From Oryzias latipes (Eukaryota > Chordata > Actinopteri > Beloniformes > Adrianichthyidae), in assembly GCF_002234675.1 (NCBI RefSeq), contig NC_019881.2:13563825-13627824 (forward strand): a stretch of DNA of 64,000 bases. Reading direction: 5' to 3'. Positions 9,444 through 60,900 of the stretch are shown piece after piece. The translations under genes were made by a program, and so were the position numbers. Position 1 is the stretch's first letter; every line of letters starts with the position of its first letter. The notes beneath the pieces were generated by a model. That model saw only the letters and a list, made by a program, of their open reading frames with translations. It did not search any database and was not told where the DNA came from.

Positions 9444-11359
9444 GCCCCAGTCCTGATAAGCACAGGCCAGATCCTTGAAAATGGAAAATCTTAATTAAGA
9501 GTAGATTCCACAACAAAGCGGAATCTTCTGAGAAACCGAAGAAAGGTTCAATCCACTGAGGGGTTCCTAAAAAAGTGCCCCTCAAAGGCTCTGGCTTCAG
9601 TTGAAGAGCTCCATGCCAAAGATGGGTTTTTGCTGATAAGAAATCACTCAAATCTGAATTCAATTTGTCTCAGCTGCTGAATTTATGGGAGACGGTCAGT
9701 GCGTGGGTCCTCTCCCCTCTAATCTCTGCAGCTGCTGTTTAAGCCTTAAGAGAGGGATCAGAGGGGAACGTACCAAAGTGTGGGCCCCATGATGCAGCGT
9801 CTTTTTTTGGGAGGCGCAGCCCTGAGAGGCAGAGCCACAAAAAGCCTGTGAGCTCAGAGGCCGTGTGGGTTGTCAACATAGCAGTCAGTCACCTCCACTC
9901 GAGTGGCTTTGTTCATGGCCAAAAAAGAGCAACTGGCCTGAACAGATATGTAGAACAAGACAAACACGGATCCTGTGTCACTAAAAAAATGGCAGAGGAC
10001 GCCTCTGCAGGAACATCAGGGTGGTTTTCAAATGGCTTAACGTTAAAGATGCAAACATGAGTTGAATGCAATAAAATTACATGAATTTTTCCTCAATTTT
10101 TTTCCATCTACTTCAATTTCAGATACGCTCACAAAACTTTGTTTTTCTTGTCCCATCTAGTTTGAATTGGTCATTAAGGACAAAGCTAAAGTGCAGTGAC
10201 TGTAGATGGATCTTTTCAAAATAAAAGTCCCCATGCAGTGTTTTACAAGCAATCTCTGCAGTCACATGCCTAATTGAATCACATGTTCAGTCATTAACCA
10301 GCAACCCAACTGACATGGCTATGTGCTGCTCAAAGGCTGGAGGATGAACTCTTTTCAGCTTTCTCACTACAATCAGCACATCTCAAACCTGCAGAAATAA
10401 AAGCATAAAAAGCTAAATTGTTTTCCTTTGAGCTGTACACTTAAAAAACAAAAACAAAAAATTCCTGCCTCTGAGTGTCCTCTTCAGCTCGAGAGGTCAA
10501 TCTTCCAGACTATCATCTATGGTTATGGGGCAATTATTAAAAACAAAAGAACCTAGAGGGACATTTTAAACCAGAATTAAAATGAAAAGTCTTCTAATTT
10601 TAATTTTACTTTGCTAATTGTGACAAAGTCCTTTGAGTTCCTGAGTTTTGTTCTCTTTCCTTGCACCAATAAATGAGTGCATCAAGTTTTCTCCTTCCAG
10701 CAGATCTTTAGGTAAACTGGCCCAAAAAAAAGAAAAAGAAAAAAGAAGTTGCTGTGTAGACAAAGGGATGGCGTAAAGAAATCAATCAAAACAAAATGTT
10801 TAATGCTCACAAAATTAAAGGTGAAGAAATGGGAAATAAACATGTTACCATTCCTTACACATGACATTAGAAAAATACAACTTGAGTACAGTTTGCACAT
10901 TTCCCCCTCATTGAACAGCATTTTAATATCAGATTATTTATGTATTATAATCTTTGACATTCGCCTCCAATTACTGAAAGTTAATACATTTTCGTCATCA
11001 TATCAGTTATGTGCATAAAAAATAATTGATTTACATTATGTTGATTAGGAAAAGCTGTTGAGATTACATGTATGGATACAGTTTCTGATGCTGAAGTGAT
11101 GTTAGATAAACATGTCTGCACATTTAGGTCCAAAAATGACACATGTAGCTTCTAAAAAATGATTTATTAAAAAAATAACAATTAATGCTTGCATAAATAA
11201 AGCCTTTTTGGTGCATCCATCAATTCTTTACATTTATAGTCTTTCCACACACTAAAAGTGCAGAAACTCGTGCTTTTATTCAAATAGCACAGAATGCATT
11301 AGTATAACCCGTAAGTAATGTAATTCATTGTAGCTGTTAGTGAGTGTTTTTCCTTTGGA
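9444..11359. other. Intergenic, lmod2 to asb15
   Basis: Contains the lmod2 promoter and 5' UTR side (minus strand, upstream of 9443) and the asb15 3' UTR. Minus-strand AATAAA signals are visible as TTTATT near 11162 and 11275. The short frames here show no family resemblance. I see no further gene. Confidence 0.6.
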
Positions 11360-14300
11360 TTAGAATACGAATGGGTCCTGCTCTCTGTAGGTTATGTAGC
11401 TCGTCACCCTGGGAGGAAAGGGAGCAGCGGCCATGGCTTCTGGGTCATTCAGCGTCCTGATGCTCACTTGACTTCGGACCACCAGTCGACACAAGTGTTG
11501 AAGAGAGCGAGGGCTGCCTGAGGAGTGAGGGCAAACATTGCAAAATACCCCAAACTGAAAAATTATCAAATATATTTACATGGTTTTTTTTTGGTCTGAA
11601 TGTGTGCTTCTGGTTTTACTGAGTGTGGTGGAAATCTCCTCCCACTCTGGCGTCCGCTCCAGAAGGCGTCTGAGGTTGAAGCAGATGCGGATTTGGCTGA
11701 CATAGTCCAGAAGCATCTTCACAACGCTCCCCACCAGATGGGTCAGCCATGACACAGACACAAACTCACAAAACTGAAACAGAAGATCATTAATTAATAA
11801 AAGTCTCAGGCGATTCAACTAATTTCAGTTTTTTCCATGAAGGGCAAGGTTGTCTGCCTCCACAAAAGCAAAAAAAACATAGCGGAACTTCAATAAGAAC
11901 AAATAGTTATTTTTTCCCCCCAGATCCATTCAATAAAACCACATTGTCTTAACTGCATAAAAACAGCTTATGAAAGTGACCAACAAATTTCCTCAAAGGA
12001 TTGTCAATGTAATTCAAGCAAAAGGGGAGAAAGACTTGACTGTAGCAAATGTTAACTAGCTACAGGCATATGATGAATGATCTCTGAGTCTCCCATTGAA
12101 TTCTGAACCATAAAAATGAAGCCTGAAGGTAGGGGAGCACGTTGACTTTCTGAAATTGGGAAGGGCAAAGTCAATTTTCAAGCTTTGTTATGTTTACTAA
12201 GGGGTCCGCCTACCTGCCAATCAAAAAAACACATCCCCGATTAATTAAGGCAGAAATTTTATCTTAAATCAAAATGAAAACAACAGATCCTCATGTGGTT
12301 ATGAATAAATATTGAAGCAGAGTAAATTGACACCTAGCTTTAAAGTAAGTTTAAAGCTCTGCATGAAGAGGCATCCATTTACACTTTGCTTTGTGTGTAA
12401 ATTTAGACTAAAAATGTGATTCTCTTCTGAAACCTGCCCCCTGTGGTTCTCTGAGGAACTGCAACATTTGGTACTTCCTGGAGTGCATCGAATTCAGGAA
12501 CAGGAAGGTGTAACTTAAATGACCTTTCCACCAATGTTTGTGAAAATGGACACAATTTTCCATTCCAATGCAACATAACAAATCCAATGATCATTTTGTC
12601 AAAATATTATATACATAAGAGAAAATACTCAGGAAAAAAATTCCCTTATTAAATAATTTAAAAGAAACAGACTAAAAACTATATTTGGTCTCTATTAAAA
12701 AAATTAAAAATGTAAAATCAAAAATGATCTAAAACAATTACACTTTTTAAGTGTATGACTTCTAATTTGCAGACCCCTATTTTAATTTTTTTTAATCAAT
12801 GTTCTATTTCGTGTTGGTTGTTCTGTTATAAGACTGTATTAAACTGTTTTATTCTTTGATTTCATTGAGGAAAATATCTTTACATATTTTTACTGTACTT
12901 TGATTATTGTATTGTTTTGTATTGTATTGTATTTGTCATAATAATTTTAAGAAACGTACCGAAATGACACTTGGTTGACTGTAAATGCAGTAGACTTGGT
13001 TATGGAGATCACTGCACTCACCATCCAGATCTTCACAACCCTTGTGACAACACTCAAAACACCTGGGGACAATAAAAAGAAAAACATGGTATTTAACAAG
13101 TTAAAAAGCTTTGAAAACTTGGGTTGCTGTACGTGCTTGTGAGCGTGATATCCGTGGTTGAGCAGCAGTCGCAGCATGGCTGGGTCTCTGATGCAGTACT
13201 GCAGGGCTGTGGGGAACACTGTGTTGCTTATCACTCTAAAATAACAGTTTATCTCAGCTCCGCGCGACAGCAGCAGCTGCACCAGCTCATACCTGGACAG
13301 GAGGATTTGAGATTATTAATCCTTCTGCATGTGAGGGAGTGAAAATAGGGCTAAAGACTGCGGCTCACCTCTCAGCACGTACAGCAACCAAAATGCACCG
13401 CAGAGGGTCCAGGTCGGTTTTTGCTCCAGCTGCCAGCAGCATCTCTGAACAGGTCACATCACCGTTGGAAACAGCAAAGAACAGAGGGGTCTTCCTGAGG
13501 TCCCCATAGTTTTCTGTAAGATTTGGGAGAAATGTGTGAAATAGCCCTGGTTTTTATGTTAAATCTAGATTTAAAAAATTATCTATCAATGATGTGGTAT
13601 TTTACTGTCACCAGTAGAAAACTCAGTTTTTATTCCAAAAAAACTACCTTAAAACCCTTGTGCTATCTTAGATGACCCCACCCTTACATTGACGTGTTCT
13701 CCCTACCATGACAAAGGTGGATAAAGGTGGAAAGATTTCATGTAATCCATGGACACCAGTGAGGATCACAAATCATTGTAGAAAAAAGGTTCAGCGCACT
13801 GTCTAGTGGGTCTATATGACCCAACTCCCAACGTTAAAGTGCCTAGGATAGCACAAGGGTTACACATCACCAAGAATTAAAAATAAACTCTAATTTCAAA
13901 ACAAGTCTTTATTGTGCATTTTTTTGCTTCTGCGACTTATACTCCAAGGAAACTCAACCATAAAACAATATAAACAAAAGCCATTTTTGATATATAATTT
14001 TGATTTATTCAAAGCCCTACCAGAGACGTGTGCATCCAGCAGGGCGTTGACATTATAACCTTTCTGAAGAAGCAGCTCCAGACATTCAGCCTGACCTCCG
14101 TCAGCTGCAGAGTGGACCGGGCTCTGGCCTGAAAGACGGATCGCTCTCTGAGTGGTGATGGGGATGAGAGTCCTCAGGGCTCTGAGGAGAGAAGGAGTGA
14201 GAGGAAAACAGGAAGAAGATGGATGACAGAGTTGGTGAAAAACACAAAACAGGACAGGGGGGCGATGCTCATTAGACTGCGGTTTGAGCGGCATTCTCAT

Positions 14301-17080
14301 TTCAAGGCTGAGCTGAAACATACGGATCAAATAGAGGGCTCTTTGTGGAAACGGTTTCAGAGAAAACATTGCACGATGTGGAAATTGTCCATGTTTTTCC
14401 TCAAGCGCTTGCTCACTTTTGGAACCAGAAAAGGAAAGGAAAGAATTTTAATTTGTCTGGGGCCACTTTTGTTTCCTGGGAACTACATTAGTCTATTAAA
14501 ATTAAGATGTTACGACCCGAGAATGCAACTTTATATAGTTCATCAGTGTGCTGCTGTGTGATCCTGTCAGAGAGCTTTAGCTCACAGTATGTGTCCTTCA
14601 TATGCAGCTCTGTGGATGGGGAGCTGACAGGCGTAGCTTGCCACATTTGGGTTAGCTCCATGCAGCAAAAGCAGTTTGATGCAGTCCAGGTTTCCTGATC
14701 CAGATGCATCATAAAGAACGGTGTCCCCATTGCTGGCCTGGGCGTTTACATCACCGCCTAGAAGTAGATGGAAAATAATCACTGCTGGCACAGATTCACA
14801 CACATAAGATGGGTGCATGCAACCCTTTTTGGTGTTTACCATGCTGTATGAGTATGTCTAAAGCTTCTGCTTTTCCATGCTCTGCCGCTATTCCAAGAGG
14901 TGTGACGCCATGACCGTCTCTCGCTGAAACGTTGGCTCCATGTCGAAGCAGCAGCATCAAAATACGAGGACAGCCCACCTGGTTTCAAAGCAATTCAAGT
15001 TGTTAACTTTTAGCCAAAAGAATTCTGTGATGCATACACATCCTTCACCGCTCTTTCACCTTTGCAGCTTCTTGGATGGCTCTCCACTTAGTGAGGCACA
15101 CCTGCTCCACAAAGGCCCCACCCATAATGAGAGTGTAAACCATCTCATATGAGCGCTGCTTCACTGCTGCGATGCACATAAAATTAAAAAAACATGAGAA
15201 AAATTGCAACAAATAAGAGTTCAAATTCAGTTATGTACAGTTATTGCAGCATTTGCTAATAAAGGTAAACACCTAAACTTGTTTTAGTTTGTTTTTGCTT
15301 AATGAGTTCTTGAGAGAGAATATTTAGGTGGACAAATTTGCCTAAAAATAGCTGCTTGTGCGTGAAAATGCTTGAAACCAGCAGTGTCTGGTTAAAAAAG
15401 GCATTGAATCGATAAATGGCTATACCCTTCTTGTTTTTGTAAACCTTCAGCTTCTCACTTTATCATAAGACATAATCCACTATTGGTGCTATCAGCTGTT
15501 GTATTCATGCATAAATGTTCATTCATCTTCTAAACCCGTTTTGTCCCTTTCAGGGTCACAGGGCTGCCTGGACAGGTGACCAATTTACCTATGAAGAATT
15601 TTTTTTGACAGGAGGTGGGAGGAAGCCGAAGACTCCAGCATGGGGAGAACATGTAAACTCCACACAGAAATGTCTCCCATTGGTGCTCTGTTTCAGGTCC
15701 CCCAGCCATCGCTACTCTTTTTGGTTTATTTCTGCTCTTTGCTTCGCTTGATAGTCTGTCAGAATTTCACAAAAATGTACTCGTATGTGAACTGACACCT
15801 TTGTTTTTAGGTGAACTTGCATTTACTTGACATATCAGATCCCATTCCTACCCAAATAAATGGACAATTTAATGAAATAAACACTGGAATGGACCAAAAA
15901 GCTCACTGTGAAAGTGTACCCTGTACTGTAGGATTTTTGGTTGCATGTATTTAAAGGGACACGTTATTAAAAAAAAAAGTAGAGTTTTTGGTGTTTTTAA
16001 CATGTTCTTGTGGCATCTTTCTCATGATGGAGGACATTTGTAAAGAAAGCCGCTCTGCAGAAACTATGTCCTAAAAAACAACTCAAGTTTTATTTATTTA
16101 TTTTTTTTGTTTTTTGCTAAAAACACAAAGAAAACAGTGGGAACACTTCTTAAAATAGATCAAAAGATGATCAGAGTGGGGACCTAAAAAAATCCATTCT
16201 TTCAAAATTATTTTGAAAATGCTGTATCTGTGGTAAAGCCCAAATAAATTTGTCTATGCAGTGAATGACTCCATATATGTCCACCAGTGCTGAAGCTTAA
16301 GGGTGTATGTTTTTTGTAGTGTGGTGTGGACACAAAAACATATTTTTGGCACAAACGGAACCCCATATTCAGCTACCGAGAAGCAGAGGAGATTCATTTT
16401 TGCCATTGGTGTTGTGTGGCGAAGCTCCGTGCTGCAGCAGCATCTTTACATTTGCCACTCGGTCGGCCTCAGCTGCCAGTGTCAGAGCCGTGTCTCCATC
16501 CACCGTCTGCTCCTCTAGCGTGAAGTCAGCCGATGTCAGTACTGCATGCAGGAAACAAAGGTAAGAACCTCGCCTCCAACTTGATTCCACCAAAACTTTG
16601 GTTGGAAATCTCACCCTGCAGCACAACCTGCAGCATCTCTGGATGTGGCTGCACCGCTGCTGCATGCAGAGGCATCCAGCCCCTGCCATCTCTCTCCTGG
16701 AAGGTAGACTCGCAGCATGACAGTGCCTGCAGCGCATCAACATCACCTGTCGAGGTGCAGGCCACAAAGCAGCCCCAACAATTGTACAAATACATTTTAG
16801 TAACATTACAAAATATTTAACATAACCTCAACCATAAACACTAGGCAGCTTTACCTTCATCAATAGCTTCTATTATTTTCACAAAGGCTTCACTGTTCTG
16901 CTTTTTCCTACAAAAATGATAGAGATTATTAGAGAATGCTACATCTGAGCTGCTTCTTTAATTTACTTCATACCTGTTTTTATCTACTGAGCTTGGCAAC
17001 TTGTAGGCATCTTGAATGCTCTCCCGGATGGCAAACTTGATTAGTTCTTCATTTATTGCTTCCCGCTCAACATCCTCCAT
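11360..17080 (-). CDS. asb15: Ankyrin repeat and SOCS box protein 15
   Basis: Thirteen minus-strand exons: 16974-17080, 16855-16907, 16615-16746, 16377-16541, 15060-15166, 14840-14978, 14586-14757, 14021-14181, 13369-13513, 13137-13292, 12960-13062, 11620-11773 and 11360-11517. All phases close to 583 aa (human ASB15 is 588). The start is [20 protein letters not shown], resembling the short N-terminal helix of ASB15. About ten ankyrin repeats follow, with typical G-TPLH/A-A--G--- patterns such as [11 protein letters not shown] and [11 protein letters not shown]. The SOCS box is in the last exon ([14 protein letters not shown]). Family role: substrate-recognition subunit of a Cullin5-Elongin B/C ubiquitin ligase, muscle-enriched. 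The adjacency to lmod2 matches human chromosome 7 and supports ASB15 over other ASBs. The junction of exons 10 and 11 keeps frame only with a GC donor (see findings). Confidence 0.92.
13653..13861. mobile_element. Short MITE with TIR AACCCTTGTGCTATC, asb15 intron copy
   Basis: Second copy of the element at 8240-8449, same orientation, in the intron between asb15 exons 8 and 9. The terminal inverted repeats AACCCTTGTGCTATC / GATAGCACAAGGGTT are intact. Confidence 0.88.
15525..15705 (-). mobile_element. tRNA-derived SINE fragment, reverse orientation
   Basis: Carries the reverse-strand body of the SINE family seen complete at 25412-25743 (tail 'gtccctttcagggtcacagg', then 'ggtgggaggaagccg', 'ggggagaacatg', 'aactccacacagaa'). 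It is internally deleted and lies in the asb15 intron between exons 4 and 5. Confidence 0.75.
15955..16195 (-). mobile_element. Internally deleted TTAA-MITE fragment, reverse orientation
   Basis: Matches the ends of the family at 35971-36573 in reverse: 'acatgttcttgtggcat', 'tcatgatggaggacat', then 'aaaatagatcaaaagatgatcagagtgggg'. The middle is missing. It lies in an asb15 intron. Confidence 0.6.
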
Positions 17081-22510: not shown

Positions 22511-27588
<5,078 letters not shown>

Positions 27589-29712: not shown

Positions 29713-32700
29713 ATGGACAGACGGTCCAGTAGAAAAGGTAAGTTGCTAAGCTAACATCGGAAAGCTAACTCAGTGGCTAAAACGGTAGTAAGAAAATAAG
29801 ACGCAGTTCTGGCCATCTGCTGCAAAAAGTACACTCGTTGCTTCTAATTACCAGCCACCATCAACTTTAATCGATCTTTACTCATATTTTATTATTTTTA
29901 ATAGTCAATTCGATTTATAATGATGAGATATATTTAAAACTAAACAATCCGTCTTTTTTCTGAGGGTCCCGCATTTGTATTTTGCGTATTTAACATTCTT
30001 CCTCCTAACCTAGGCAAACTAATAGTCCATTTGTCATAGCGTTGGCTGAAGTTTTAAATGCATCCCTCAAAGAAGATTGGCGCTCAATTCCTCCATCATC
30101 ATGGCACATGCAGCACATCTGCATCCTGCAAAGCACACAGACGACTCCGCAGCGCCCCCTGCCAAAGACTCGATTTTGTTGACAAAATCTTATAAAAGAC
30201 GAAAAAAAAATAGTGAGGCCTTTTATTTCATTTCGTTCTTAAAACTAACTCGCTTATAGATAATATCCCAGTTAATCAAGTATTATTCCACTCTACTTAA
30301 AAATGCTGCAAATGTTATTTATGTTATTTGCACATCATATGCGTTTTGAGTAGTTAATCTAATATATATTTAGTCCAAGAATGGGATTTGTATTATTTAA
30401 ACTTAAATAACATAGTTAGATTTTGCCCCAAATTTCAGATATTTTTCCACTAAACTATCCATACATCTGTTTTGTTTTTTACATCCGCGAGTGTACCATA
30501 AATAAAAAAGGACAAATAGTTAAAGTATGTTGTAGTTACTACCTGACTGACAGACTTCAGGCTTCTTGAAAGCCTGTCATCATTTTAAGTTCCTACATAA
30601 GACTGCAGTAGCATGAAGTTTTTTCATTGATTTTTAAGGGACAGTTCAAGTTTTTGGGGTATTTTTGACATTTTGAGACAAGACATTATAACACATTAGA
30701 CAGTTTGAGTTCTGAGTCTCCAAGTAACTTCGTAAACTTGATTCCAAGTAAACTCGATTGCTTAAGTGTCCATTTTTGGCTGTGGTGCAGAGGTAGAGCT
30801 GTCGACCTCTGACAGAAAGATTGCAGGTTCGGTTTCCCCTTTGCCCACCCATGTGTCCAAATGTCCTTGTCCAAAATACTGGTTAAAGTTTGGCGCCAGT
30901 GCTCAGTAGTGGAAATAGGACTGTGACTGTAAAGCGCTTTGGGCCTTCTAAGAAAGCACTCTATAAATATATGCCACTTACCATTTTTACCATTAAAGTG
31001 CATGTCAGATCTGGTTATTGTATCCCTCAGTTATCAGATTTTTGTGGTCATTCAAGCTGTCTCACCAAAGTGAAAAAGTGTGCTCTTTTTTTCTTCTTCA
31101 TGTTTTAAGTGACTATTTCCAAACTATTTTCCAGGTGCTAGGAGCTCCCTTCCACTGGCCTCCCTCCGTCTGATGGCTTCTCCTCTTCAACTTACATATT
31201 CCTACATGTGGCAGGTCATACGACAGAAAAATGTGAAGCATTATGGGAAAGTGGAAGAGTTTGTGACTATGGTGACTCAAACTGTTCCTGAGCTGCTGAG
31301 TTTCAAGCAGACTGCCCAGCTAATTTTGGGGTTGAGAGCCAGGGTGAGTTGTTTTCACTCCGTTTTTGTTTCAAAAATGACAAATCTATTGGAATAAAAT
31401 GGGCATAATTTCGATTATTTCATATTTATTTAAACGCTCTAGATGCCTTTTTTTAAGCATTTGTTCTACTACTTTCCTTGCAGTGAGCTAAATAATTACA
31501 CACTTGAAGCTAAGCATTTTGCTAAGCTTACATGTTTCTGTGATCAATTTTGTCCTTTTGTATTATAGGTTATCTTGGAGCTTCTTCACAAGGAAGGCCC
31601 ACCAGATCTGAAGGCTATCCAGATGCTCATCAACAAGTTGAAGGTCACCACCACATCTTCTGGGGTGCGTACTGGAGCATGTTGTTTTGTGTATTGATTC
31701 TATGATATGTTAGTGATTTGTTTATGTTCTCTTGGGCACCATTTTCTTTATTCATGGTTTGTTTTGTTCTGATATGTTCAAATTATAAATCAGTAGAGTT
31801 TATTTTTCCCATCTCTGCAAACACAATGTTTTGTTCCCTTTGTTACAGAAGGATAATGAAGTGGACAAATCACAAACAAACTTCATGGTGCTGGTGCAGA
31901 ATCTGCTCAAAAACCCCAATGAAAGGAAGCGCTTCTTCAAGGTACCCGCAACTCTTGAGTGTTTATTTAAACATTATATAACACAAAATCAGTTCAGACC
32001 TGCTTGGAGTTAAGTTTTCGATTAAAACTGGATATTTGTTTTCTTAATTTCCTAAGTGGAATGTCCTTAATTCCTGAAGTGGATCATTTTTGAAACGGTA
32101 AAAGACTTAAAAAAGTGCATGTTTGAACGACAAAGGGCAAGAATGAATGAGCTTTTCATTTTCACAACAAATGAAAGAAAAAATACAAAAGAAGCTCGAG
32201 CGTGTTCTAATGTATTCTGTGTTCACAGAATAATAAAAGTGAAGATGAAATTCAGTCATTTGTATATACATTAAAAAAAATGCAAAACAGCAAATACATA
32301 TTTACCCTCTTTTTGCTTGACATTCTAAAACAAAATGTTGAAGACACAATTTCTATCCATGTTCATATTAATTTCCACATACATGAAATTCAGAGTGACA
32401 ATTAGGGAAAAAAAAGAGTAAAATAGAAACAGACTTTATTCATAGAAGAACAACAAAATAGATCTTAAGGTCAAAGGAGTAATGAATACAAAGACGATGA
32501 ACGACATATTTTTGTACACAGGAAGTCTTCCCTCTTCATTATGGCACAAAGTTTGATACAGCACTGCAGGCTTTGATCGCTGGACTGGTTTGCAAGTTGG
32601 AGCAACTTCTACCTGTTCCCAATCTGTCCCAGGTATGTCATGCAGCTCAACATTCAGCTCCTGCTTTTTGGGAGTGTGGATTCCAGGGTTATTGAACACT

Positions 32701-35700
32701 GGGTGCATAGAGTTTCTTTGGAATACTTTTCCGATTTCTTTCTTTGTGTGTTGATCATTTTTGCATGGCTATTACCAGGGTTCTTGTAAAAACTAATCAC
32801 TCTCTAGTTTATAGATTTGCAATGAATATCTTAAAAGCTTTAAAAATGTATTACTTAATATTGAAGTACAGTGGTCCCTCATTCATCACACACTTCACAG
32901 TTTTCTCAGACAGACTTTCAACAATCTTCCTCTCTTGTTTAACCTCTCCAAGTTTAAACCTTCATAGAAAAATAAATCAGATATAATGGAATGAAAACCA
33001 AGATCTGTTTGTAATACAGAATTAAGTAAATTTGGCAAACTGGCTGCATTCTGTAAAGGAGACACGGTACAAAGGAGACTGAAATTTTCTACAACCAATC
33101 AGGACGCAGAACATACTGCACTGTAAAAAAAAAGAAACATGCTAAATGCACTAAAAGGAATCGCGAAGCTCCAAGGGCGGCAGTGGCTCGGGTGGTTTTG
33201 CAGGTCGGCCAATGATCCAAGGGTCAATCCCCTGTCGTTGGCCCCAGTGGTGTGGGAATGCGGTGGTGGTCAGACAGGTCGTAGGCGCGTACTGGCAGCC
33301 ACGCAGCTGTGGCTGCATCAGTAGCTTACCATCACCAACTAAAAACGAGGAGTGAATGAATAATGGATACGCATTGTGAGCATCTGGAAAAGCGCAGAAA
33401 ACCCATCATTAATACTATTAGGGCTGCATAACTGTTACAGCGAGGGACCGCTGTGTATCACAAAGTAGTTCATGGTTTGTGACATTTTAAATAGAAAAGT
33501 AAATTTTGTTTGTACTACCTACTATAAGTTTCTGTGGAGTATAAGTCGCACCAGCCCAAAAATGCATTATAAAGTTAAAAAAAAACACACAGATAAGTCG
33601 CACTGGACTATAAGTCGCATTTTGACAGGAAATTTATTTGACAAAATATCTACTGTTTATCTAGTTTATCTCTAGTAATTCTTTCTCATACTTATTTATT
33701 TATTCCTTTCATGAAGCATCATTGGCCAACTAATACTCTGTTTTCATCCTGTATTTGTAGAAACAGTTGTCATTTTTATTGCATTTCTGAATCTATGAAG
33801 TTATTGGAAAATAGAATATTATGTTGTTAGCCTTCAAGATCTTACTGTAAAAAAAAGTTTGCTGATTCTGAGTCACTTAACATACTCTTAACACTTAACA
33901 TACCTCATACATCAAATTGACCTAGGACATCATCTCTGTTCCTCACAAATGAACATAACAGGAGGGTTAACAATGTATTTATTTCAATTTATTTCTAATA
34001 TAAGTCGCACCCCTTGCCAAACTATGAAAAGAAGGGCGACTTATAGTCTGGAAAATACGGTATTTTTTTTTTCTACCTGGTTGACACCAGTAGGGGGAGT
34101 GGAGACTCACTGCACTAGAGGGCTGCATTGGGATTGGGTCCCGCCGGGTCCCGCGGGACCCAACGCAAATCTCGCGGGATTGGGCGGTTTGAATTGTACT
34201 GCGGGCGGGAGCGGGCGGCAAAAAAAAAAAACTCTGCGGGATCAGTTTTGCCATGAATATCTCATGAATATATAAAAGTGGACTACGTTAGGCTGTGCGG
34301 CTGTTGGAGTCTTATGTACTGAAGCTCCGTGAAGGCACCAGGTAGAGACGCCTAATGGCCACTGTCATCTAACCTGTTGTTGGGGGTGTGCAGTGCCCCG
34401 CCCCGCCTCTTAGAAATTGTGTTCTTTAAAGCCTGATACCGCGGTCGCGTATGGGCGGAGCTATCAGCTAAAGTTCTGGTCTGATCGCTGCATGGAGCGA
34501 TGTGTGCATCAATGCATGGTAGACACGAAGAATGTGGAGAGATCAGGTTTATTATTTTAAAGAGTTCTGCTTGATAATCATGTTTCCATGTTTGAGTTCA
34601 TAGAATCATCCCAGAGAAAGTCTCTGCTTCAACTCCCGCAGTGAAAGCTGCGTCTCAATCTGACGCCGTGTTTCCATCTCTCTGACAGAGTTTGAAGCCA
34701 AAGCCCCTCCCCCGCCTCTTTACCTGCTTTTCCTCTCTACCTGTTCACCCGTTCACATCCTCTGCAGCTTAGAGTTATTTTCCCCGCGCTCCCAGTGTGT
34801 TCTACACAGAGAGCACAAAATACGGTCATAGCAGGTTAACACGTTAGTTGGAACGCTCTAGCGCAACAGAAGGATGAAAGAGCTGTCAATCTATCTGGCA
34901 ACACTTCGCGGGATAAGGAAGAAGCAGAGGTTTCCTGACAGGGACATGATGTCAGTTGATGAAGCAGAAAAGAACCTCAAACGAGGTTCATCGTGTTCAG
35001 ATCTGCGTGCCAATGCCCCACTGAGGCGCAAAACAGCAAAAACGGGAAAAGGCTGAAGCTAAAAAAAAAAAAAAAAGTATTTTTCCGTCAGGAAAAAATT
35101 AATTCATAGATTTTCAGCTCTGTTGAACCATTACAATGTTTTTCTTCCTGCAAATGACTTTGACCTGCATCTATCCCAGCTGGTTCAGCGCGCTTCAGGC
35201 CGTCTGTCTGCGCGCGGACACACGCACACTTTTTTTTACCGAACAGGATTTGTGAAAATATATTTAATGATTATGTTGCACATTACACAAAAGAGGAATG
35301 CATGAAAAGATGAGACTGGAGGAGGGACATGAATCTCTTTAATAATATCAATACAAATACGTGTTTTTTTCTGCGGGACGGGAGACGATACAAAATCAAT
35401 GCCTCTCTATTACTGTGCGGGACTAAATTCTATGAGTTTTGCGGGTGCGGGCGGGAGTGGACATACATATTGCGGGTGCGGGCGGGAGTGTAACGCATAC
35501 GTTGCGGGAGCGGGCGGGATTGGTCAGAAATTTGGCGGGTGCGGGCGGGAGCGGGATGAAGAAAATAGTCCCGCGCAGGGCTCTACACTGCACCTTCTGC
35601 CTTATGTCTGTAAAAAGGTTGGATAAAATTCTGATCCAAGTCGTCTTAAAAGCGTCTCACATCTTGTAGAAATCTCTGAGATGATCAAATAAAACCATAT

Positions 35701-38281
35701 GTGTTGGTCAGGGATTCACATCAGCAGAGACAAAGGTCTTCACTGTGAATTAAACTACAACTCATTTGTGCTTTAGCTTGGTTCTCTGATCTCAACGGAG
35801 CCCAGCGTCTTGGATGCTTGCGGGGCCTTTATTCCTGACCAAGGAGATTTGAAGACTCTTCTGCTGCACCAGCAGGCCAAAGGTCTCCTGGGCGTTAAAG
35901 GTTTGTTTCTCGTTATTTAAGATTACTTTTGTTATGAAAATGAGTATGTAGCTTGTGTGTAAATGGTTAAAGACCCACTCCTATCATCTTTTGATCTATT
36001 GTAAAAGAGTTCCCAGTGGTCTAATTATGATGATTCAGTTTTTACCCTAAATATAAAAAAACTGCATTGTTTTCCAGGACATAGTTTCTGCAGAGCGGCA
36101 GGAATTCACTAGAAGTTTGCCTCTGAGTTGTGGGCAGAACTGTTGGTGCGGAGTAACCCCGCCCCCCTTCCCGTTGCTGAGGGCTCTCTGTTTATGAGCT
36201 CTCTCACTAGCTTATTTATATATATATGGTGAGCGATATCAGAGCTATCCAGCCATACAGTTTAGATCCAGATACCAGCTCAGATGAGGAAAATGAAGAT
36301 GTACATGGATCTATTTGTCTGCTAGTGAATGCATCATATTGGAGCAGAGCAGGGAGTTTGTGGCCCACTCAGTGTATTTTCTACCTCAGAAATAAGCTCT
36401 TTATCAACATCATTTTTTCTACTGCTTCTGATTCACTACGATTTGAATAAAGAAATACTCAGAAATGCCGTTTTAAGCCATATTTTCTTTATATATGTCC
36501 TCCATTATCCCCAAAAAATATCCCAAGAACATGTTAAAACCACCAGAAGCACCATCTTCATCAGAGTGGGTCTTTAAATGTTGACTGTGTGCCGATGAAC
36601 ACGAGGAATCTCTTTTCTGTGTGCAGCGACCGTCTCAACCTCAGTGGGCGACTGCGTACTTTCATCCCTTGCCTTCCTTCCCAAACCGGTGGAACCACCA
36701 ACACCACCCCCACCATCGCCAAAGCAACCAGAGGCCACCCATGACGAAAGGAGCAATATTTCCCTGAGTGACCATGACGATGCGGGATGTGTCTCTGATA
36801 ACTCTGACATTCAAGAAATTTTCCCTGAGTCACCTCTGCAAAGAGAGCCGGCAAGCCACCCTACGGCTAACAACAAGCAGACAAAGGAAGCAGATCCCGC
36901 TGTTTCTGCTCCACAGGAGTCTCCCACCGCTCCTCAGAGCAGCGGGAACGATGGAACACCAGCACCTCCAGAAAAACCGGAACTACAGCGGCTGCCTTTG
37001 AAATCAATCCCATTCAGGGTGGTACAGGTGCCGGTCAAACCTGCCGCTGCGACACTGAACGCCAGCAGCGCAGGATCAAAGGAAGGGCCAAAGCCTCAGA
37101 CTCAGAGGGTGACGTTACATCAGTGGGTGTCGCAGATTGCCTCGAACTCCATGTCCCTTCCTGCTTTACCTCCTCTTCCTCCCGGCAGATTTAGCGACTG
37201 CGATGACATGCGGCCTAGCATACGACGAAAAAAGCAATTCAGGCATTTGACCGACCGATACAGCTGCAGTGTGTGCGATAAGAGCTTCCCCTATCAGTCC
37301 AAGCTGCTGGATCACGAGCGCATTCACACTGGCGAGAAGCCCTACCTGTGCACGGCGTGCAACAAAAGTTTCCGAACGCAGGGGTTCCTAAACAACCACC
37401 TGAAGACCCACAGCACAGAACGTCCTTTCGCCTGCGGTCAGTGCGGCAAGTGTTTCACCAAACTGCAAAGTCTGACCAAGCACATACTGGCCCACAGCGG
37501 CCAGAAGCCCTTCTACTGCAACATCTGCAACAAGGGCTTCACCCAGTCCACCTACTTCAAGAGGCACATGGAGTGTCACACCAGCCAGATGACTTTCCCC
37601 TGCAAGCACTGCAACAAAATCTTCCCAACAGCCTTTAAGCTGTCCAACCACGAGCGCTGGCACACCAGAGACCGCCCCCACATGTGTGAACGCTGTGGGA
37701 AGAGGTTCCTCGTTCCCAGCCTGTTGAAGAGACACATGGGCTACCACATAGGCGATCGGCAGTACCTATGCTCCCAGTGTGGGAAGACCTTTGTGTACCT
37801 GTCGGACCTGAAGAGACACCAGCAAGACCACATCCCCAAAGCCAAGATCCCGTGTCCGATCTGCCAAAAGAAATTCTCCAGCAAGTACTGCCTGAGGGTT
37901 CATCTGAGGATCCACACCAGGGAGAGGCCCTACCGGTGCACCATATGTGACAAGACATTCACTCAGGTCGGCAACCTGAAAGTGCACATCAGGTTGCACA
38001 CCAACGAGCGACCCTTCAGCTGCGACGTGTGCGGAAAGACCTACAAGCTGGCGTCTCACCTGAACGTCCACAAACGGACTCACACGTGCAAAAAGCCCTG
38101 GACGTGCGAGACGTGCGGGAAGGGATTCTCCGTCCCCGGCCTCCTGAAGAAGCACGAGCAGCTGCACATCGACGAAGCAAACCCCGACTTTGCCGGTAAG
38201 CGAAGGCACCGAGGCAAACACAAGAAGCACTCCCTCAAGAGAAAGTATGACGAGGAAGAGGAGGGCAGCGATGACTATTAA
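29713..38281 (+). CDS. TIN2-like N-terminal domain fused to 11 C2H2 zinc fingers
   Basis: Seven exons: 29713-29737, 31135-31343, 31569-31664, 31849-31941, 32522-32632, 35777-35900 and 36627-38281, giving 770 aa. Residues about 20-200 resemble the TRFH-like N-terminus of the shelterin protein TIN2 (TINF2). Examples are MWQVIRQKNVKHYGKVEEF against WQVVRGRCVEHFPRVLEF, LGLRARVILELL against MGLKAKVVVELI, and FDTALQALIAGLVCKLEQLL against [20 protein letters not shown]. An acidic/Pro/Ser linker follows. Residues about 431-733 hold eleven C2H2 fingers with TGEKP-type linkers, and a basic then acidic tail ends the protein. It probably binds DNA in the nucleus. Its targets are unknown, and a link to telomeres is inference from the domain only. 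I see no F-x-L-x-P TRF-binding motif. The 111 bp exon 5 is easily missed but is needed to complete the domain. Transposons fill the 3.1 kb intron after it. AATAAA near 38822 is a likely polyadenylation signal. Confidence 0.9.
30779..30985 (+). mobile_element. tRNA-derived SINE in intron 1 of the zinc-finger gene
   Basis: Box A-like GGCTGTGGTGCAGAGGTAGA and box B-like GCAGGTTCGGTTTCCC start the element. It ends with the 'gtaaagcgctttgggcc' and 'aaagcactctataaatatat' tail common to several fish SINEs. Confidence 0.78.
33178..33400 (+). mobile_element. Second tRNA-derived SINE type
   Basis: 'gcggcagtggctcgggtgg' and 'ggtcggccaatgatccaagg' form a tRNA-like head. The tail reads 'gtgaatgaataatggatacg' and 'gtgagcatctggaaaagcgc'. 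This is a different family from the 25.4 kb SINE. It lies in intron 5 of the zinc-finger gene. Confidence 0.65.
33530..34062. mobile_element. TAAGTCGCAC-type non-autonomous DNA element
   Basis: The left part has repeated TATAAGTCGCAC motifs. The right end is GCGACTTATAGTCTGGAAAA followed by TACGGTA. This is a terminal motif I recognise from a widespread fish repeat. A diverged relative is at about 63400-63540. It carries no coding capacity. Confidence 0.6.
34116..35585. mobile_element. hAT-type transposon, 1470 bp, perfect 8 bp target duplication
   Basis: The 8 bp CACTGCAC occurs directly before (34108-34115) and after (35586-35593) the element. The ends are TAGAGGGCTGC and, reversed, TAGAGCCCTGC. 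Both ends carry subterminal GC-rich repeats built from GCGGG(T/A)GCGGGCGGGA, with one array near 34199-34220 and four units between 35430 and 35575. These are likely transposase-binding sites. A 60-codon frame at 34874-35056 (start MKELSIYLATLRGIRKKQRF) may be a transposase remnant. No full transposase is present, so the element is non-autonomous. It lies in intron 5 of the zinc-finger gene. Confidence 0.88.
35971..36573 (+). mobile_element. TTAA-family MITE, reference copy
   Basis: Flanked by TTAA at 35967-35970 and 36574-36577. The ends are AGACCCACTCC and GAGTGGGTCT. The interior includes 'atcatcttttgatctattg', 'ccccgcccccctt', an acidic frame beginning MVSDIRAIQPYSLDPDTSSD at 36226, and 'aataaagaaatactcagaaat'. 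It lies in the last intron of the zinc-finger gene, ending about 50 bp before the final exon. Confidence 0.85.
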
Positions 38282-41234
38282 ACAAAAAGGAATTTATTTG
38301 TGCTCATAAATGCTGATCACTGTTAGAAAAAAAAGGGTCCTGTGTTGATCATGTGACTATTAAAGCGACATTTTTTGGATGATATACAATCCCTTGTTCA
38401 TTATGAGTAATCATAATTGACCAAAGTATTGTTTTTTAGTCACTTCATGAGCATAGAAATCATGCATTTTAATGTAAAACCATTTCCCCAAATGAAAAAG
38501 TATTTCTCTTTTTATTCTACTTCATGGTGTGACAAAAAATAAAAAGGGGAAAACAGTAATCGTCAGTCACTGATTCTGTAAATCTTCCACCTTAAAAAAA
38601 TTAGAGGTCTGTAATGTTTATCATAGATACAGGAAGAGAATTTTTGCTTTATTGTCTACACCGTTGTACAAAAAAATATTTAAAAATCACTTTTTTAGAT
38701 TATTTCTCTCACAGTTGAAGATGATGAACATTAGTCACCAAACTCATCCCTTTAATTTGCTAAATTAGTGACTTAACTGCTTTTTTGCCTCACTGTATGT
38801 TGTACATTGTGATTTGGGGCTAAATAAAGCCACCCAGGATTTTTACTTAAACATATTTACATTTGTGTGATTGTAGTTATCTTTGTATTTTTACTAAGTC
38901 TAAAAAATATCAGCATCATGTTTATGTAAAAATACACTTTTTATATGATAAAAATGTAAATATTTCAAAGCATGTGACTGTAGGAAACTTCTTGATATTT
39001 GATAAAAAAAACTGTAGCACATAGTGCAATTTTCTTTGATTTGCTTTACTTTTTTGTCATTTTCAACTTTTTTTTGTTTTGTTGCAACAATTTACTGTAT
39101 ATATTTCACCTTTTTTGTTGTTAACTTCACTTTATCTTCATGTTGAAGTGAAAACCTGCAATATTAAAGTCTAGAAATATGAGGTAAACCACCAAGTGAG
39201 AACAACCGTGTATGTAACCCACCAAGAAATGTTTGCAGCTTTTACAGAAAAATAAAAAGTTTTGTCAAAAACAAATAACTTCTGGTTTTGGGGGGGTTTG
39301 GACAAATAAAAGTTTAAATACAGAACTTTGTTTTGAGCCAGATTTAGTGACATTTCATTATTTCTATCAGTTGTTTTTATTACATTTTGCTGTAGTGAAG
39401 ATGAAAAGTAGAGGCCTAACCTTTAACCTTATGGGATTCAGAGTGAACATCTGCTACAGGGAAACCTGTTTCCTTACTGTACTTATGACAATAAAGTCCT
39501 TTGAATCTCTCATGACTCAACAGGACAGGAGTGTTAAACTGTAGAAGGTAGTGTTGAATCCAGAAAAGCGAGTAGGGGTGTAACGATTGATTTTAACGAT
39601 TTGATTCATATCATAATTTGTGGTAGACGACACGATTCATAGTTCATTTTGAATGATCCGATTCACTGACCTAAAATCAATCCAAGACATCTTTAGCCAA
39701 AACGTCACTTCATCAGCTAACTAATACACCTAAGATGATTTACAGACAATTTCATGAGTCAAAATCTTAGTCATATTAGACTACATTTCCCAGAAACCCT
39801 CATTTTGATATAATAAATTTCGACTTTGTTGATCAAATTCAACAACCAGAGTTTTTACCTCCACCCTCTTGTCCTCGGCTGTGCTTGTGACATTAAGGCT
39901 ACTTTAAACCAAAACATCCTACTTTAAACATTAAAAATGTTGTTTTTGTAGTCGGTTTTCTCAAAGCTGGACTGGAGGACTTGCGGGGAATTGTCATGTT
40001 TTTGCATCTAGAGAGCGCCAATCTGGAAATGATGTGTCCGTCTGGTTTGTCCTAACAAACTGTTTAAAGTGGTTTTCAAAAAAAATAAATAAAGTAAAAT
40101 GAGTCAGCAAATGGATTAGGCCCTGCTCACTATCTGTAGCTCAGTGGATACAAAAGTTAAATTGACTAAATTGATTTTTCTTTGATCCCTGAATGTATCC
40201 TGTTGTGAAGCCCCCATTCTAGTTTGTTTTTCTTTTTTCTGTACTTGCAAGGATGAGTCCAATCTCAACACGTTACTGTTATATTAATTCCCTGTAATTC
40301 TATATCTTTAGGCAATAAAGTAAAAAAAAAAAAAAGTAGGATCTCCAGAGGAAGTTTGACTGTGATCGTGATCATGCAGGTTCAGTCATTTAACTCCTCT
40401 GAACTGCAGATCATCACCACAGCTTACACTTTCATTGTTCTGTACTCGTCATGTACCATTTGTTATTAATAATCAAAATATTAGAGGGATGGGTTCTTTC
40501 AAAGCAAGATGAGGGTATATTTGAAATAACGCCTTTATTATCAGACATATGTCTCTACTTTTTAAAACTCTGCATTAATGTTTTAGCCCAGTCTCTGGAG
40601 ATAATAATTGATCCATGAAGTGAGATAAAACTTCCAGTGATTGATCAAATTCAGGAAATAATAGGACTGAAGGTACTTTGCAGGGTGAGGTTGCTTTTCC
40701 TTTCTGCATGTCAGACAGCTGCAGTTTCCATAAATATACGACTTCCTGCTTTTATCACAAACCCTGAAAGCATTTTCTTCGATTTGATGCTTTATTTAAT
40801 TTGTGTACTTTGTAAACAAAATATGTACTGATTGGTTGCTTCTACTCGCCATGTCGTCATTTGTTACATGACAAACTAAAACCTTTTTTTCCCTTTTTTG
40901 ACAAAGTTACTGCTAATTAGTGTTGTGGAGCCAAAATTAATTAGTAAAAGTTCTTTGTGGCCAGACACTTCATATCTAAACTGAAATATTTGTCATTAGT
41001 CAAATATCTCCCCTTAGCCAAAAGTAGTACACCTTAAGTATACTGGAATATTTGTTAAAATTATATATTGCATTTGGAGTCATTGTATGTCATAAAGATG
41101 AGCTGCAATTAAGTTCCTAAACCCTTTTCTCTCTATTTACTGTCATCTGTATCTTATGTTTCCATTTGTCTGCCTCATCATCAATGTAGCTGACACAAAG
41201 CATACTAAAAAATAAAAACCCACAAAACTAATAA

Positions 41235-54900: not shown

Positions 54901-57900
54901 CAGCAAAGATAAGACATTTATTGTTGATGTAGCAAGATACAGCAATAGTTAAAAGTTTTCCGGAATTGAACCAAAAAATGTAATAAATGGTCTAAACCAT
55001 AATGAATCATTAACATAAAGTTAGTGTAATTTGCTATAGCACCTTAATACAAAGTTAGAGCAATAGGGGCTCTGTATGTTAAGCCATTGTTGATTGTGTT
55101 CCTCAGGGGTCAAATATAGAGCTTTACACATTTTTACATTTTACATTGTTAACACGTGTAATACTTCAATTGCAATTCAGAAATACAGTAGTTTTTACAG
55201 GAACAAACACATTTTTTAAATAATTTTTCATATTATTTAAAAAAAAAGTTTAAGTTGATTTGAATAAAACATAGTCACTTGTAAATAAGAAATACTGCAG
55301 ATTCAAAAAGTTTACATTTTGAGGGGTTTATTAATGTATATTCAATAAACTAAAAATACTGGAAATTAGATGTAAATACCTAACATTATTTTCAACATAG
55401 TAATATAAATTCTTTTTTAACCCCTCCAGTCTTAACATTAGGTGGAAGATTAATTAGAGCTAGTTGCTACAAAAGTTAGCAATAAAGGTTAAGAAAAAAA
55501 TAAAATAAAATATCAATATTTCTAAACACTTATGATCTATATGCTGATACAGTGATATATAATAGCATATGCTTTCACATAATATACTGTTTTTAGAAAC
55601 ACAGCAAAGAAAATAAATTGCAGAAGAAAGGTAAGGACTAGAAAGTCAACACTCGTCAAATTAATGTACCGGTATATAAAATTGACTATTTTATTCAGGG
55701 AACAGTTTTTACAAATATATCTGTTGCTATTATTGTTCGTCTATTCTTTAGGGCATATGTTCATTTATGTACATTTACGGTATGTGGTTTTAGATAGATT
55801 AATAGACAGACATGTGTTTTTCTTGTTAAGCAGATAAAATTTAAGATCCTACAGGTTTTATCCTTTCGTCTTGTTTTTAGACTTTTGTTTTAATGTTTTG
55901 TACATTAAAAACAATAAAAATGACCACTGAAAGGGCTTTTTTTACATTAAGTGCAGTCCTCAAAACATGAGCTGGAGATTTTTTATGCTTAGTGGCAGCG
56001 GTCATGGTGTGTGGAGAGTGGGAGGGTTGGAGACGAAGGGCGGGTGTTGCATTGTTTTGTAGACTCTTTCCATCATCCTGTCTGGGCCCAGTTCACAGAT
56101 GAAAACATCCTGTGAGAGACAGCTTATGACCACCTAGCCGGCCTTTTGCTCACAGACATGTTCTGTATTTATAACATTATGGAGGAAGATGAGGAGGAGT
56201 ATGTAGATCAGCCAGCAGATTTACCTGATGGGCCTCATTTTTACCCACAGGTAGAATTCAATGACAAACCTGAGTCGCTGTTCTTCAACGATGGGATTCG
56301 AAGGATCGATTTCATCCTGGTGTATGAAGATGAGGACAAGAAGGAGTTTGAGAAGAGGACCATGTCCCAGAGGCGCAAGGTAATGTTTTTCACATTTTCT
56401 TATGTTATAGTTTCAGCTTATGTTGTTGGAAAAGGCTTATAAGGACTTGACTTCAAAAGATCCTTTCAGAAGTTGACATCAACAACATTTTGTGAGGAAA
56501 CTTAAGAAAAAAGTTGTGACTGTTTTACAGCGAAAATATAAATGCGCAAAACTATTTTAAAATCATTTAAAGGTCGAATTCCGATCAAACTAACTTGATA
56601 AAACTAACAAGTTTTGCTTAATATGAAGCTAAAAGAAGATAATTGACAAATGTTTCAAAATGCATAGTAGCTAAGGCGCTGTATTTGCTCTTTGATGGGA
56701 ATCTTCATAACCAAATGTTTATGAGGTTAAATATGGCTTTAACCTTTGACATTTTAGCTTTCTAAGATTCATTTGCTTAGGGAGGAGGAGCAAATGAAAA
56801 GAACCGTTTGCTCACTTAATCTCTGCCAGGCAGATCGAAACAAAACCACGATCTTTGCCAAGTCTAGATATTTCTGAAAATGTGGTTTAAGATGGAATAG
56901 AACAGAAGACACAAACACAATCTGACGCTCGGAGGTGGGATTATTTCCACCTATGTCTTTCGCAAGAGGCTTACAGGAGTATTTGTGCAATGTCATGTTT
57001 GGAAAACAGAGGTTGCGCGCTTTAAAGTTATAAGAGTCAACAACACAATCTCCAGGAAGTTATGAAAGGCAGGCTGTCATTTTCAGAAGCTGAAATCTGG
57101 CCATCTTGACTGAAAGGATAAGTAACAGTTTACAAGAAAATGACATGTTCTTTCTTGAAAATAATCCTTATCATACATTTTTCACATCATGTGCCTGGGT
57201 TTGGAGGTGCCCTAACTTGAAAGCTACAACAGTAACATGTCTAGCAGTAAAACCTAAATCAGTGAAAGCGGACCATCCTGTTACAGGGTTCCTTGGAAAA
57301 CGGGCAGCAGAACATTTCTTACTTCATCTGCTGTAATTCCCCCGGTCTTAGTCATAGCAGATCAAGCTAAATCTGGTTCAGAGGAAGTTTGGGCTGCTGA
57401 CTCCTCCAAGGACTTGATCCCATTTCTATTTACCCCCAGACAAATGTTTCACAATATTTGTTCTCCTCTGGCTTCTGGGGAGGAGTGGTTAAACCAACTT
57501 GTTCTTTTTCAATTATATTTATGGTTATGAAGTCTTAAAACAAAATCTCATCCTTTAGAGCCCTTATTCAGTGAAAATCATCTGGTATTCCTTTTTCTTT
57601 GTGTTTGATCCAAACCAAGTATCTAACCACTCTCATAAAAAATACCATCATGATAAATGTGTTTCTTAAAAGGAATCCTAATGACGTATTTTGTTTTCTT
57701 CATTTCTAATGGGGTTAATTCATCCTCACATACTTAATCTCTGACCTAAAAAGAATACAAAACATTTTTAGCATTAAAGCTCTTAACACACATTAAGGTC
57801 GCACTATTAGTGAGCAATATTGTGATGACGAAATAACTTGCGATGCCTGAACTAATGGCAAAACAACTAAATGCATCTTTCCAGTTCACTACAACAGTTT

Positions 57901-60900
57901 ATTTAAAAGAAGAGTCAACATAATTTAAATTATACTCCAAATGAGTCTCGTAGGAGGCAAACATCTAACAAAAGGGCTTCATCCGATTGGTCAAATGCAT
58001 AAAGGGATTTATTTGATTCATTAAATATTCAAGCTGCCATAAGATTGTTTTTGCACATGTACTGGTAACCATTTATATCAATTTTCGCAGACTTTTGCGA
58101 TATGCATATTGCACAGCTTTAAATTACGATAATGATAAACGTGTGATTTATTGTGCAGGCCTAACACACATTCAGTTTTTTAAATTATCTTTCAAATTTA
58201 GCATGTATGTGTAAAAAATAGCAATTTGAATAATTACCAGTACATAATCTATTTTTCTAATAAAGACTTTCCTGGAGTCTGGGATCCAGCCACCTGCATG
58301 TCAGTTGTATATGGCCCCTCCAATGTCAATAGTGGTCAATCTGATCACTATAACACTGATTCACGTTCAACGTGATCTGAAACTTTTTCTCATGACGAAT
58401 AAGGAGACATTTTATGGAATTACTGAGCGCAGGTTATAATATTTTGGATTATTAATTAAAACTTGCATTGTATCAGAAGGACAGCAGTATAATACAAATA
58501 ACACATTTTTAATTGAGATACGTTAATCTAAAGACCCACTTCAATAAAAATTGTGTTTTTGGCATTTTTTACATGTTCTTTAAGCATTTTTCTGATGATG
58601 AAGGACATAGATCAAGAGTTTTTTTTATTCAATCATTGTGAATCAGAAGCAGACAAAAAATGCAGTTTAATAATAATAATATAAGGACACTGTACAGGTT
58701 AAAAAGAAACACAATAAAATTACAACATGTAAAATACAAGAAATAAGATAAAATCATTAATAAAATCAGATAGCAGAAGATGAAAAATTGTGATCAGGGA
58801 AAGCAAGTTTAAACAGATGGGTTTTGAGTTTGGATTTAAACATTGAAAAGGAGTCTATGTTACGGATATCTGAGGAGAGAGAGTTCCAGAGTTTGGGAGC
58901 CGAGCGGCTGAAGATATGGCTCCCCATGATCACCATACAGGCCGGACGGAAGGAAAGCTGAAGGGAGGAAGAAGACCGGAGAGAGTGAGAGGGAGTGTTA
59001 ACATGGAGGAGGTTAGAAAAATACGAGGGAGCCAGGTTATGGAGGGCTTTGAACGTGTAGAGAAGGAGTTTGAATTGAATCTGAAAGCTACTGGAAGCCA
59101 GTGCAGCTGCTGGAGCACGGGAGCGATATGATGGAAGAAAGGAGTTCTGGTGATGATGCGGGCAGCTGAATTCTGGACCAATTGGAGTTTATTAAGAGGT
59201 TTCTTGGGAAGACCAGAGAGAAGTGCATTGCAGTAGTCAATGCAAGATGTGATCAGACTATGAACTAAAATGGAGGCAGAGTGGACGGTGAAGGAGGGGC
59301 AGAGACGATTGATATTGCGTAGATGAAAGTATGCAGACCGAGTACCGGAAATGCTATTAATGTTAGATTGAAAGGAAAGAGTTTATTTGTTATATAAAAA
59401 ATATGCTTCTCTGCCACAACCTTCCTGGTGCAACCTCTTAGCAACAGCTCTGCACCAACTCAGAGGCGACTTTCTAGTGAACTACTGTCGTTCTGCTGAA
59501 ACGATGACCTAGAAAACGATACATTTTTTAAATTTAAGCTAAAAACAGCATAATCTTAATTAAAAGGCCAATGGAAGCACTTTTACTATAGATCAAAAGA
59601 TGATCGAGTGGGCCTTCAAAAATGAACAGTTTTGTATCATCTTATATAAATGCATCGTTAATCAAAACGTGTGAAGTTCATCTCTATCCAGAAGCAAATT
59701 TCAAACATATAAATAGAAGATTTACTCTTTTTGCTTAAATTTATGTTTAAATTTAGTTATGATCTAGTGAGCATTAGTAGAACACTTACATTAGCCTTCT
59801 ACCAGTACTTATTCTGTGTGTTATTTGTTGTATAGTATTCACTAAGCTGGGGTCGCTGTCTTTGGTCACCCCAGAAAAAACAATTCTAGTCTCCAGTTGA
59901 TCAGAAAGTCACAGATGGGCAAACAACCACAACCACATGTGGTCATGGCGATTTCAAAGATCATTTACTGACTGAGGAGGAAGCTTAAGTTCCTCTGAGA
60001 GAAAACAAGCTTTATAAGTTTGAATGAACCAATCTAAAGCATGCAATTATAGGCTGGGCTCGAGGAGTCAGGAGCCAACAGGAATACATGATCAAACATT
60101 TTTTAAATTCCTGTGCATATGAGCACTTTAATAGATAAAATAACACAACATTTTCAGAGTTCTGATAATGTCACCATCCTGCAAAAATAACACAGTAAAT
60201 GAGTTTTGTTTTTCTTAACAGAATAACAGAATTATTTCAAACATGAGGTTCCTTCTGTTTTAATATACAATAACTTACTTGTTTTTAAAGTAAATACACT
60301 CCCAGGAGCATTCAGACATAATAGGTTCTTGGAAATAGTAGGCATGAATGCATTGTGAAAACAAAGCTCCCTTACACAAAGGACTTCAACGGACCTCCAC
60401 TAAAAGAGTTAAAAGATATGAACAGAGTGTAATCTCTTCTCTCTCTTTGCTCTCTGTGCTAGTATATGACTTAATTTGTATTTTTGTGGCATGGTTTGCA
60501 TGAATTTTGTAATTCTTACCTGTTTTACCGGTTGGTTGTGCACTGGGACGTACTGAAGGGAAATAAGTGAAGCCTGTGCTGGCTAGGACAGGAAACCGTA
60601 TGCAGCAAACAAATCTATATAAAAGTGTGACAGTTTGTCAGGATTTCCTGATTGTATGAAACAATGTTGACATTTATTCTTGACTTGTCTGGTTTTTTTA
60701 AGAGTTTGAAATTTTGCAGTAGCAAAACAAAAATCGTATTTGTGCATTTTCCTGTGTTCCCCGTAGAGACGGCGGGAGTACTTTGAGGCCAGCCTGATGA
60801 AAATGGGCTTGGAGCTGGAAGCCACTCCATCTGTAAGTGGAATATGTTTTAAAGACCTACTCCAATCACCTTTTAAATTATTTTCAGTAATCCCAGAGGT

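Follow-up and report, generated by a model that had tools for sequence, protein, structure and literature searches.

A TIN2-type TRFH domain and 11 C2H2 zinc fingers combined in a predicted medaka protein

A gene of the medaka Oryzias latipes is predicted to encode a protein that combines an N-terminal domain of the type found in the shelterin component TIN2 with a C-terminal array of 11 C2H2 zinc fingers. The gene lies in a stretch of 64,000 nucleotides of contig NC_019881.2 that was analyzed at its full length (hereafter, the window). At the level of the sequence, this architecture is nearly certain. Three residues required, fully or in part, for the docking of partners by human TIN2 are replaced in the medaka domain, indicating that the partner of this domain is probably not TPP1 bound in the human mode.

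The seven exons, on the plus strand between positions 29713 and 38281 (Table 1), join in frame into a predicted open reading frame of 770 residues, the stop codon being included in the last exon. All six introns have a GT donor and an AG acceptor. Pfam profile zf-C2H2 matched 11 stretches of the product (E = 1.7e-51), corresponding to 11 C-X2-C-X12-H-X3-H units in tandem. They are preceded by a linker (residues 220 to 425) that contains 34 Pro and 26 Ser among 206 residues. These results confirm the initial annotation, which had described a seven-exon gene combining a TIN2-like domain with 11 fingers.

Pfam profile TINF2_N (PF14973) matched residues 34 to 178 over its entire length (positions 1 to 149 of 149) with an E value of 1.2e-51 and a score of 175.4 bits for a cut-off of 29.4. 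A human TIN2 fragment scored 190.9 bits on the same model, indicating that the medaka domain fits the TINF2_N family almost as well. A phmmer search with residues 1 to 220 against 177,635 distinct PDB sequences (E up to 10) returned a sole match, the TRFH domain of human TIN2 (5XYF; E = 8e-14; residues 21 to 185). Local alignment to human TIN2 with BLOSUM62 gave a score of 165, versus no more than 54 for any of 500 shuffles; 47 of the 162 aligned positions hold identical residues. SCAN, BTB, and KRAB were not among the 13 Pfam families matched at E values up to 0.1. The Pfam, PDB, and pairwise comparisons with TIN2 support homology between the N-terminal domain and the TIN2 TRFH domain. The domain had been assigned to exons 1 to 6, and this assignment holds in part: the Pfam match is encoded by exons 2 to 5 and the PDB match extends slightly into exon 6, but exon 1 provides just eight residues.

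Table 1. Exons of the TIN2-like zinc-finger gene and candidate polyadenylation signals downstream of it (positions in the window)
Feature	Position(s)	Strand	Content
Exon 1	29713..29737	+	Start codon, 8 residues, phase-1 donor
Exon 2	31135..31343	+	Residues 9-78; TINF2_N/TRFH domain begins here
Exon 3	31569..31664	+	Residues 79-110; within TINF2_N
Exon 4	31849..31941	+	Residues 111-141; within TINF2_N
Exon 5	32522..32632	+	Residues 142-178; Pfam match ends; bears A161 and G162 (places of human F152 and E153)
Exon 6	35777..35900	+	Begins at residue 179 and runs to residue 220, where the junction is in phase 1; C-terminal margin of the TIN2-like part; bears T205 (place of human W198)
Exon 7	36627..38281	+	Pro/Ser-rich linker; 11 C2H2 fingers (residues 433-733); tail, first basic and then acidic; stop codon
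AATAAA/ATTAAA sites (n = 7 within 38282-39600)	38359, 38538, 38823 (38823..38828), 39163, 39251, 39305, 39490	+	Candidate poly(A) signals

Introns 1 and 6 are both in phase 1, and exons 2 to 6, which lie between them, total 633 nt, a multiple of three. Because transfer of a cassette flanked by introns of the same phase leaves the reading frame intact, this arrangement fits exon shuffling of a TIN2-type block onto a zinc-finger exon. The structure of this single gene fits a history in which exons 2 to 6 are a TIN2-type cassette that was copied and joined to the zinc-finger exon.

Zinc-finger proteins of the SCAN and BTB families carry an N-terminal protein-binding domain followed by a C-terminal C2H2 array. 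The medaka protein follows the same plan, also found in the KRAB and FiNZ proteins (PMC11603059), but differs from all of these proteins by an N-terminal domain of the TIN2 TRFH type. Its fingers are mutually divergent, with mean finger-to-finger identities of 0.39 for the protein and 0.52 for the DNA (maxima of 0.62 and 0.63, respectively), and 9 of the 10 linkers deviate from T-G-E-K-P. In young arrays, the fingers are more alike and the linkers closer to T-G-E-K-P. The medaka array looks like an old one with settled roles rather than one that was recently multiplied, and the divergence of its fingers, together with the noncanonical linkers, carries some weight against participation in a transposon arms race. 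Outside the gene, a tblastn search of the window with the 770-residue protein (E up to 10) returned only matches at E values of 0.97 or worse, and neither a second TINF2_N domain nor a second finger array was found. A viral-contig scan with exon 7 returned two stretches that fit a pattern, neither of which encodes a relative. We consider it unlikely that the protein is a silencer of transposons comparable to those of the KRAB or FiNZ types, although many fingers preceded by an N-terminal docking domain would be in keeping with their plan and cyprinid FiNZ zinc-finger genes have been reported to repress transposons (PMC11603059): the array is unlike young ones, and the window holds no second copy of the gene.

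The recognition of DNA by fingers of this type is described by a textbook code. Few of the helix residues of the medaka fingers match textbook DNA contacts, so that prediction of a target motif would be guesswork.

The N-terminal domain had been described as a dimerization or docking fold. The second part of this description agrees with the TRFH domain of TIN2, which is described as a dock for peptides of TPP1 and TRF2, whereas homodimerization has been described for TRF1 and TRF2 (PMC7617103). A domain acting chiefly as a homodimerizer, in the manner of SCAN and BTB, would have a precedent in the TRFH domains of these two proteins. Such a role appears improbable to about the same degree as transposon silencing, because no relative closer than TIN2 was found, and the TRFH domain of TIN2 is described as a peptide dock (PMC7617103). 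The 5XYF entry contains one TIN2 chain, an observation that points in the same direction and is not decisive.

In human TIN2, replacement of either F152 or E153 by alanine eliminates the binding of both TPP1 and TRF2, changing W198 weakens it, and K160 is indifferent; the A15R substitution abolishes TPP1 binding (PMC8262337). The numbering of human TIN2 was set by fitting the residue letters named in that study, and one of the five offsets tried was found to fit. Human F152, E153, and W198 align with A161, G162, and T205 of the medaka protein, respectively, and human K160 aligns with Q169, the two substitution matrices used giving the same result in each case. The place of human A15 is at a two-residue gap, this residue being unaligned with BLOSUM62 and aligned with S31 with BLOSUM45 and PAM250. 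Position 161 is thus naturally occupied by alanine, the residue whose introduction kills binding in human TIN2. Because residues needed by human TIN2 are replaced, TPP1 is probably not the partner of the medaka domain in the human mode of binding, as judged by a comparison restricted to the human protein; in fish, TPP1 and TIN2 may have changed together.

The [FY]-x-L-x-P motif is absent from all 770 residues, in agreement with the initial annotation, which had deduced from this absence that TRF proteins would not recruit the protein to telomeres. There are two routes of interaction between TRF2 and TIN2, and the central TRFH-binding motif of TIN2 binds TRF2 far less tightly than does the TRFH domain of TIN2 itself (PMC5974431). 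Since TRF2 can dock on the latter domain, the missing F-x-L-x-P motif does not on its own exclude TRF2 and counts mainly against the binding of TRF1. The deduction had missed this second route, and its conclusion is better based on the replacement of F152, E153, and W198 (PMC5974431, PMC8262337). Thus, the medaka protein shares with TIN2 (TINF2) of shelterin an N-terminal TRFH-type domain, and differs from it by the absence of F-x-L-x-P, by the replacement of these three residues, and by the addition of 11 zinc fingers. The gene is best called a TIN2-domain paralogue rather than TIN2.

Three zebrafish homologues of TIN2 sharing a common N-terminal domain and differing in their C termini have been cloned as cDNAs (Xie et al. 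2011, PMC3032778). Among the three, zfTIN2-1 is the only one reported to have a TRFH-binding motif and the only one whose N-terminal part coprecipitated with zfTPP1 (PMC3032778). The N-terminal parts of zfTIN2-2 and zfTIN2-3 failed to bind zfTPP1 (PMC3032778), so that there is a precedent in fish for additional TIN2-type domains lacking TPP1 binding. zfTIN2-2 and zfTIN2-3 resemble the medaka protein in having a TIN2 N-terminal domain and a C terminus unlike that of zfTIN2-1, and short stretches of them, read from primers only, match exons 6 and 2, respectively. The start of zfTIN2-3, M-W-Q-V-L-Q-H-K-S-L (primer translation, PMC3032778), aligns with M-W-Q-V-I-R-Q-K-N-V of exon 2, none of 1,000 shuffles being as good. 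For the zfTIN2-2 primer peptide D-M-K-S-L-L-E-H-H-T (PMC3032778), the counterpart in exon 6 is D-L-K-T-L-L-L-H, an alignment equaled by 6 of 1,000 shuffles. The remaining five of the seven primer peptides of that study aligned no better than expected by chance, with 84, 192, 463, 503, and 374 of 1,000 shuffles as good. The term "zinc finger" does not occur in the main text of PMC3032778.

A pull-down of zebrafish telomeres led to the enrichment of all six shelterin orthologues (PMC11846949). The presence of Tinf2 among them indicates that zebrafish possesses a proper TIN2 besides any paralogue of the kind described here. Zebrafish tinf2 mutants were reported in the same study as apparently unaffected, which would fit the existence of a stand-in and is not proof of one. 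The medaka protein could accordingly be imagined as a telomere accessory factor, with a TRFH-type domain that would still dock TRF2 or TPP1 and fingers that would bind TTAGGG or subtelomeric repeats. The clear homology of the domain to the TRFH domain of TIN2 would support such a role, as would the capacity of the latter to accept a TRF2 peptide without F-x-L-x-P (PMC7617103, PMC5974431), the binding of TTAGGG by several zinc-finger proteins, such as ZBTB48 and ZBTB10 (PMC11846949), and the room for a stand-in left by the tinf2 mutants. We regard it as a doubtful proposition, somewhat below the two roles considered above, since A, G, and T occupy the positions of F152, E153, and W198, and since two of the three zebrafish TIN2-type N-terminal domains did not bind TPP1 (PMC3032778). 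In addition, Tinf2 is named in passages of the pull-down study alongside several zinc-finger proteins, and none of these is described there as a fusion of TIN2 with zinc fingers (PMC11846949). Telomere-like repeats in the window were not above chance (2 matches with at most 2 mismatches versus a mean of 3.66 by chance), a count that says little about binding sites elsewhere.

An erroneous join between a TIN2-like gene (exons 1 to 6) and a neighboring zinc-finger gene (exon 7) is very improbable: intron 5 is long (positions 32633 to 35776, 3,144 bases) and holds a transposon-like insert, AATAAA or ATTAAA sites occur between exons 5 and 7 (at 32971, 35688, 35749, and 36446), the exon 6 donor (GTTTGT) is weak by eye, and a finger-only protein could begin at Met395, ahead of the first finger at residue 433, but the junctions are in frame, exon 7 begins in phase 1 and its linker is open from the first base, the open frame ahead of Met395, the first Met of exon 7, would be useless over about 175 linker residues without an upstream exon, and exon 6 resembles a stretch of a zebrafish cDNA (the zfTIN2-2 primer).

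The insert in intron 5 is about 1.47 kb in length (about 34116 to 35585; 34108 to 35593 with the repeats), has roughly inverted termini, and is flanked by an 8-base direct repeat, CACTGCAC, at positions 34108 and 35586. It accounts for about half of the length of the intron and is no part of the gene. A GC-rich 31-base tandem repeat is found inside the insert (35439 to 35551), and a reading frame at 34862 to 35056 had no Pfam match. We take the insert to resemble a nonautonomous hAT element.

The gene is flanked on one side by a relative of leiomodin-2 and by ankyrin-repeat exons and on the other side by exons of the Mat89Bb family and a relative of anoctamin-6. These neighbors were identified by a general profile scan of 14 of the 191 reading frames and one shorter frame, and TPP1 was not among the matches of these 15 frames. 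In zebrafish, by contrast, the TIN2 orthologue is located near the TPP1 gene (PMC3032778). The leiomodin-2-like exon (9153 to 9494, minus strand) matched leiomodin-2 in the PDB (E = 5.2e-37) and Tropomodulin in Pfam (E = 2.7e-23). Frames 1793 to 2428 and 3475 to 3864 resemble, by eye, further parts of this gene; Pfam gave no match for the first and a leucine-rich repeat below the cut-off for the second. Among the ankyrin-repeat exons (12950 to 16827, minus strand), 14585 to 14857 and 16372 to 16827 scored above the Pfam cut-off and 12950 to 13312 scored below it. Their position beside leiomodin-2 suggests, on our assumption of conserved synteny, that they belong to ASB15. Five stretches between 44299 and 50137 on the minus strand matched Mat89Bb (PF10221), which we take to be the Asunder/INTS13 family. 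The anoctamin exons are on the plus strand (56116 to 61878); 56116 to 56439 and 61489 to 61878 matched Anoct_dimer, the second of these also matching anoctamin-6 in the PDB (E = 8.2e-32). Two further features are repetitive or transposon-like in appearance. On the minus strand, frames within 58769 to 59382 resemble, by eye, the last part of a LINE-type reverse transcriptase, the frame at 58769 to 59188 having no Pfam match at E values up to 0.01. A long simple repeat at 24725 to 25065 opens alternating Y/I reading frames on both strands.

For the TIN2-domain paralogue itself, we rate as even the chances that it is a nuclear DNA-binding docking protein whose partner is not TPP1 in the human mode, with control of chromatin or transcription away from telomeres as its likeliest role. 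In this proposal, the TIN2-type cassette (exons 2 to 6) would have been copied and then joined to the zinc-finger exon. The fingers would direct the protein to specific sites on the DNA, and the TRFH-type domain would there capture a short peptide belonging to a different nuclear protein. The domain would thereby serve in the control of chromatin or transcription off the telomeres as the SCAN, BTB, and KRAB domains do in other zinc-finger proteins. More tentatively, ray-finned fish may possess zinc-finger proteins in which a shelterin TRFH domain has been repurposed as an effector with a new peptide partner at nontelomeric sites, the zebrafish cDNAs of 2011 whose products failed to bind TPP1 belonging to the same group; we see this wider proposal as possible rather than probable. 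The statement of the initial annotation that fish have coupled the fold to fingers has, as a statement on a family, one gene as its basis here.

Pfam, protein databases, and fish gene catalogues already list proteins that combine TINF2_N with C2H2 fingers in fish. We found no paper describing this architecture in the literature searched, which excludes most subscription papers. The combination has thus probably been recorded but not studied.

The TIN2 TRFH domain is known above all for its role as the hub holding shelterin together. One practical consequence is a caution, namely, that fish proteins picked by similarity to the N-terminal domain of TIN2 need not be TIN2. The medaka domain also provides a natural comparison for the residues responsible for the binding of TPP1 and TRF2 by TIN2. 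If the proposal is true, the existence of a zinc-finger protein based on the TIN2 TRFH domain would show this domain to be a peptide dock open to redirection in the course of evolution.
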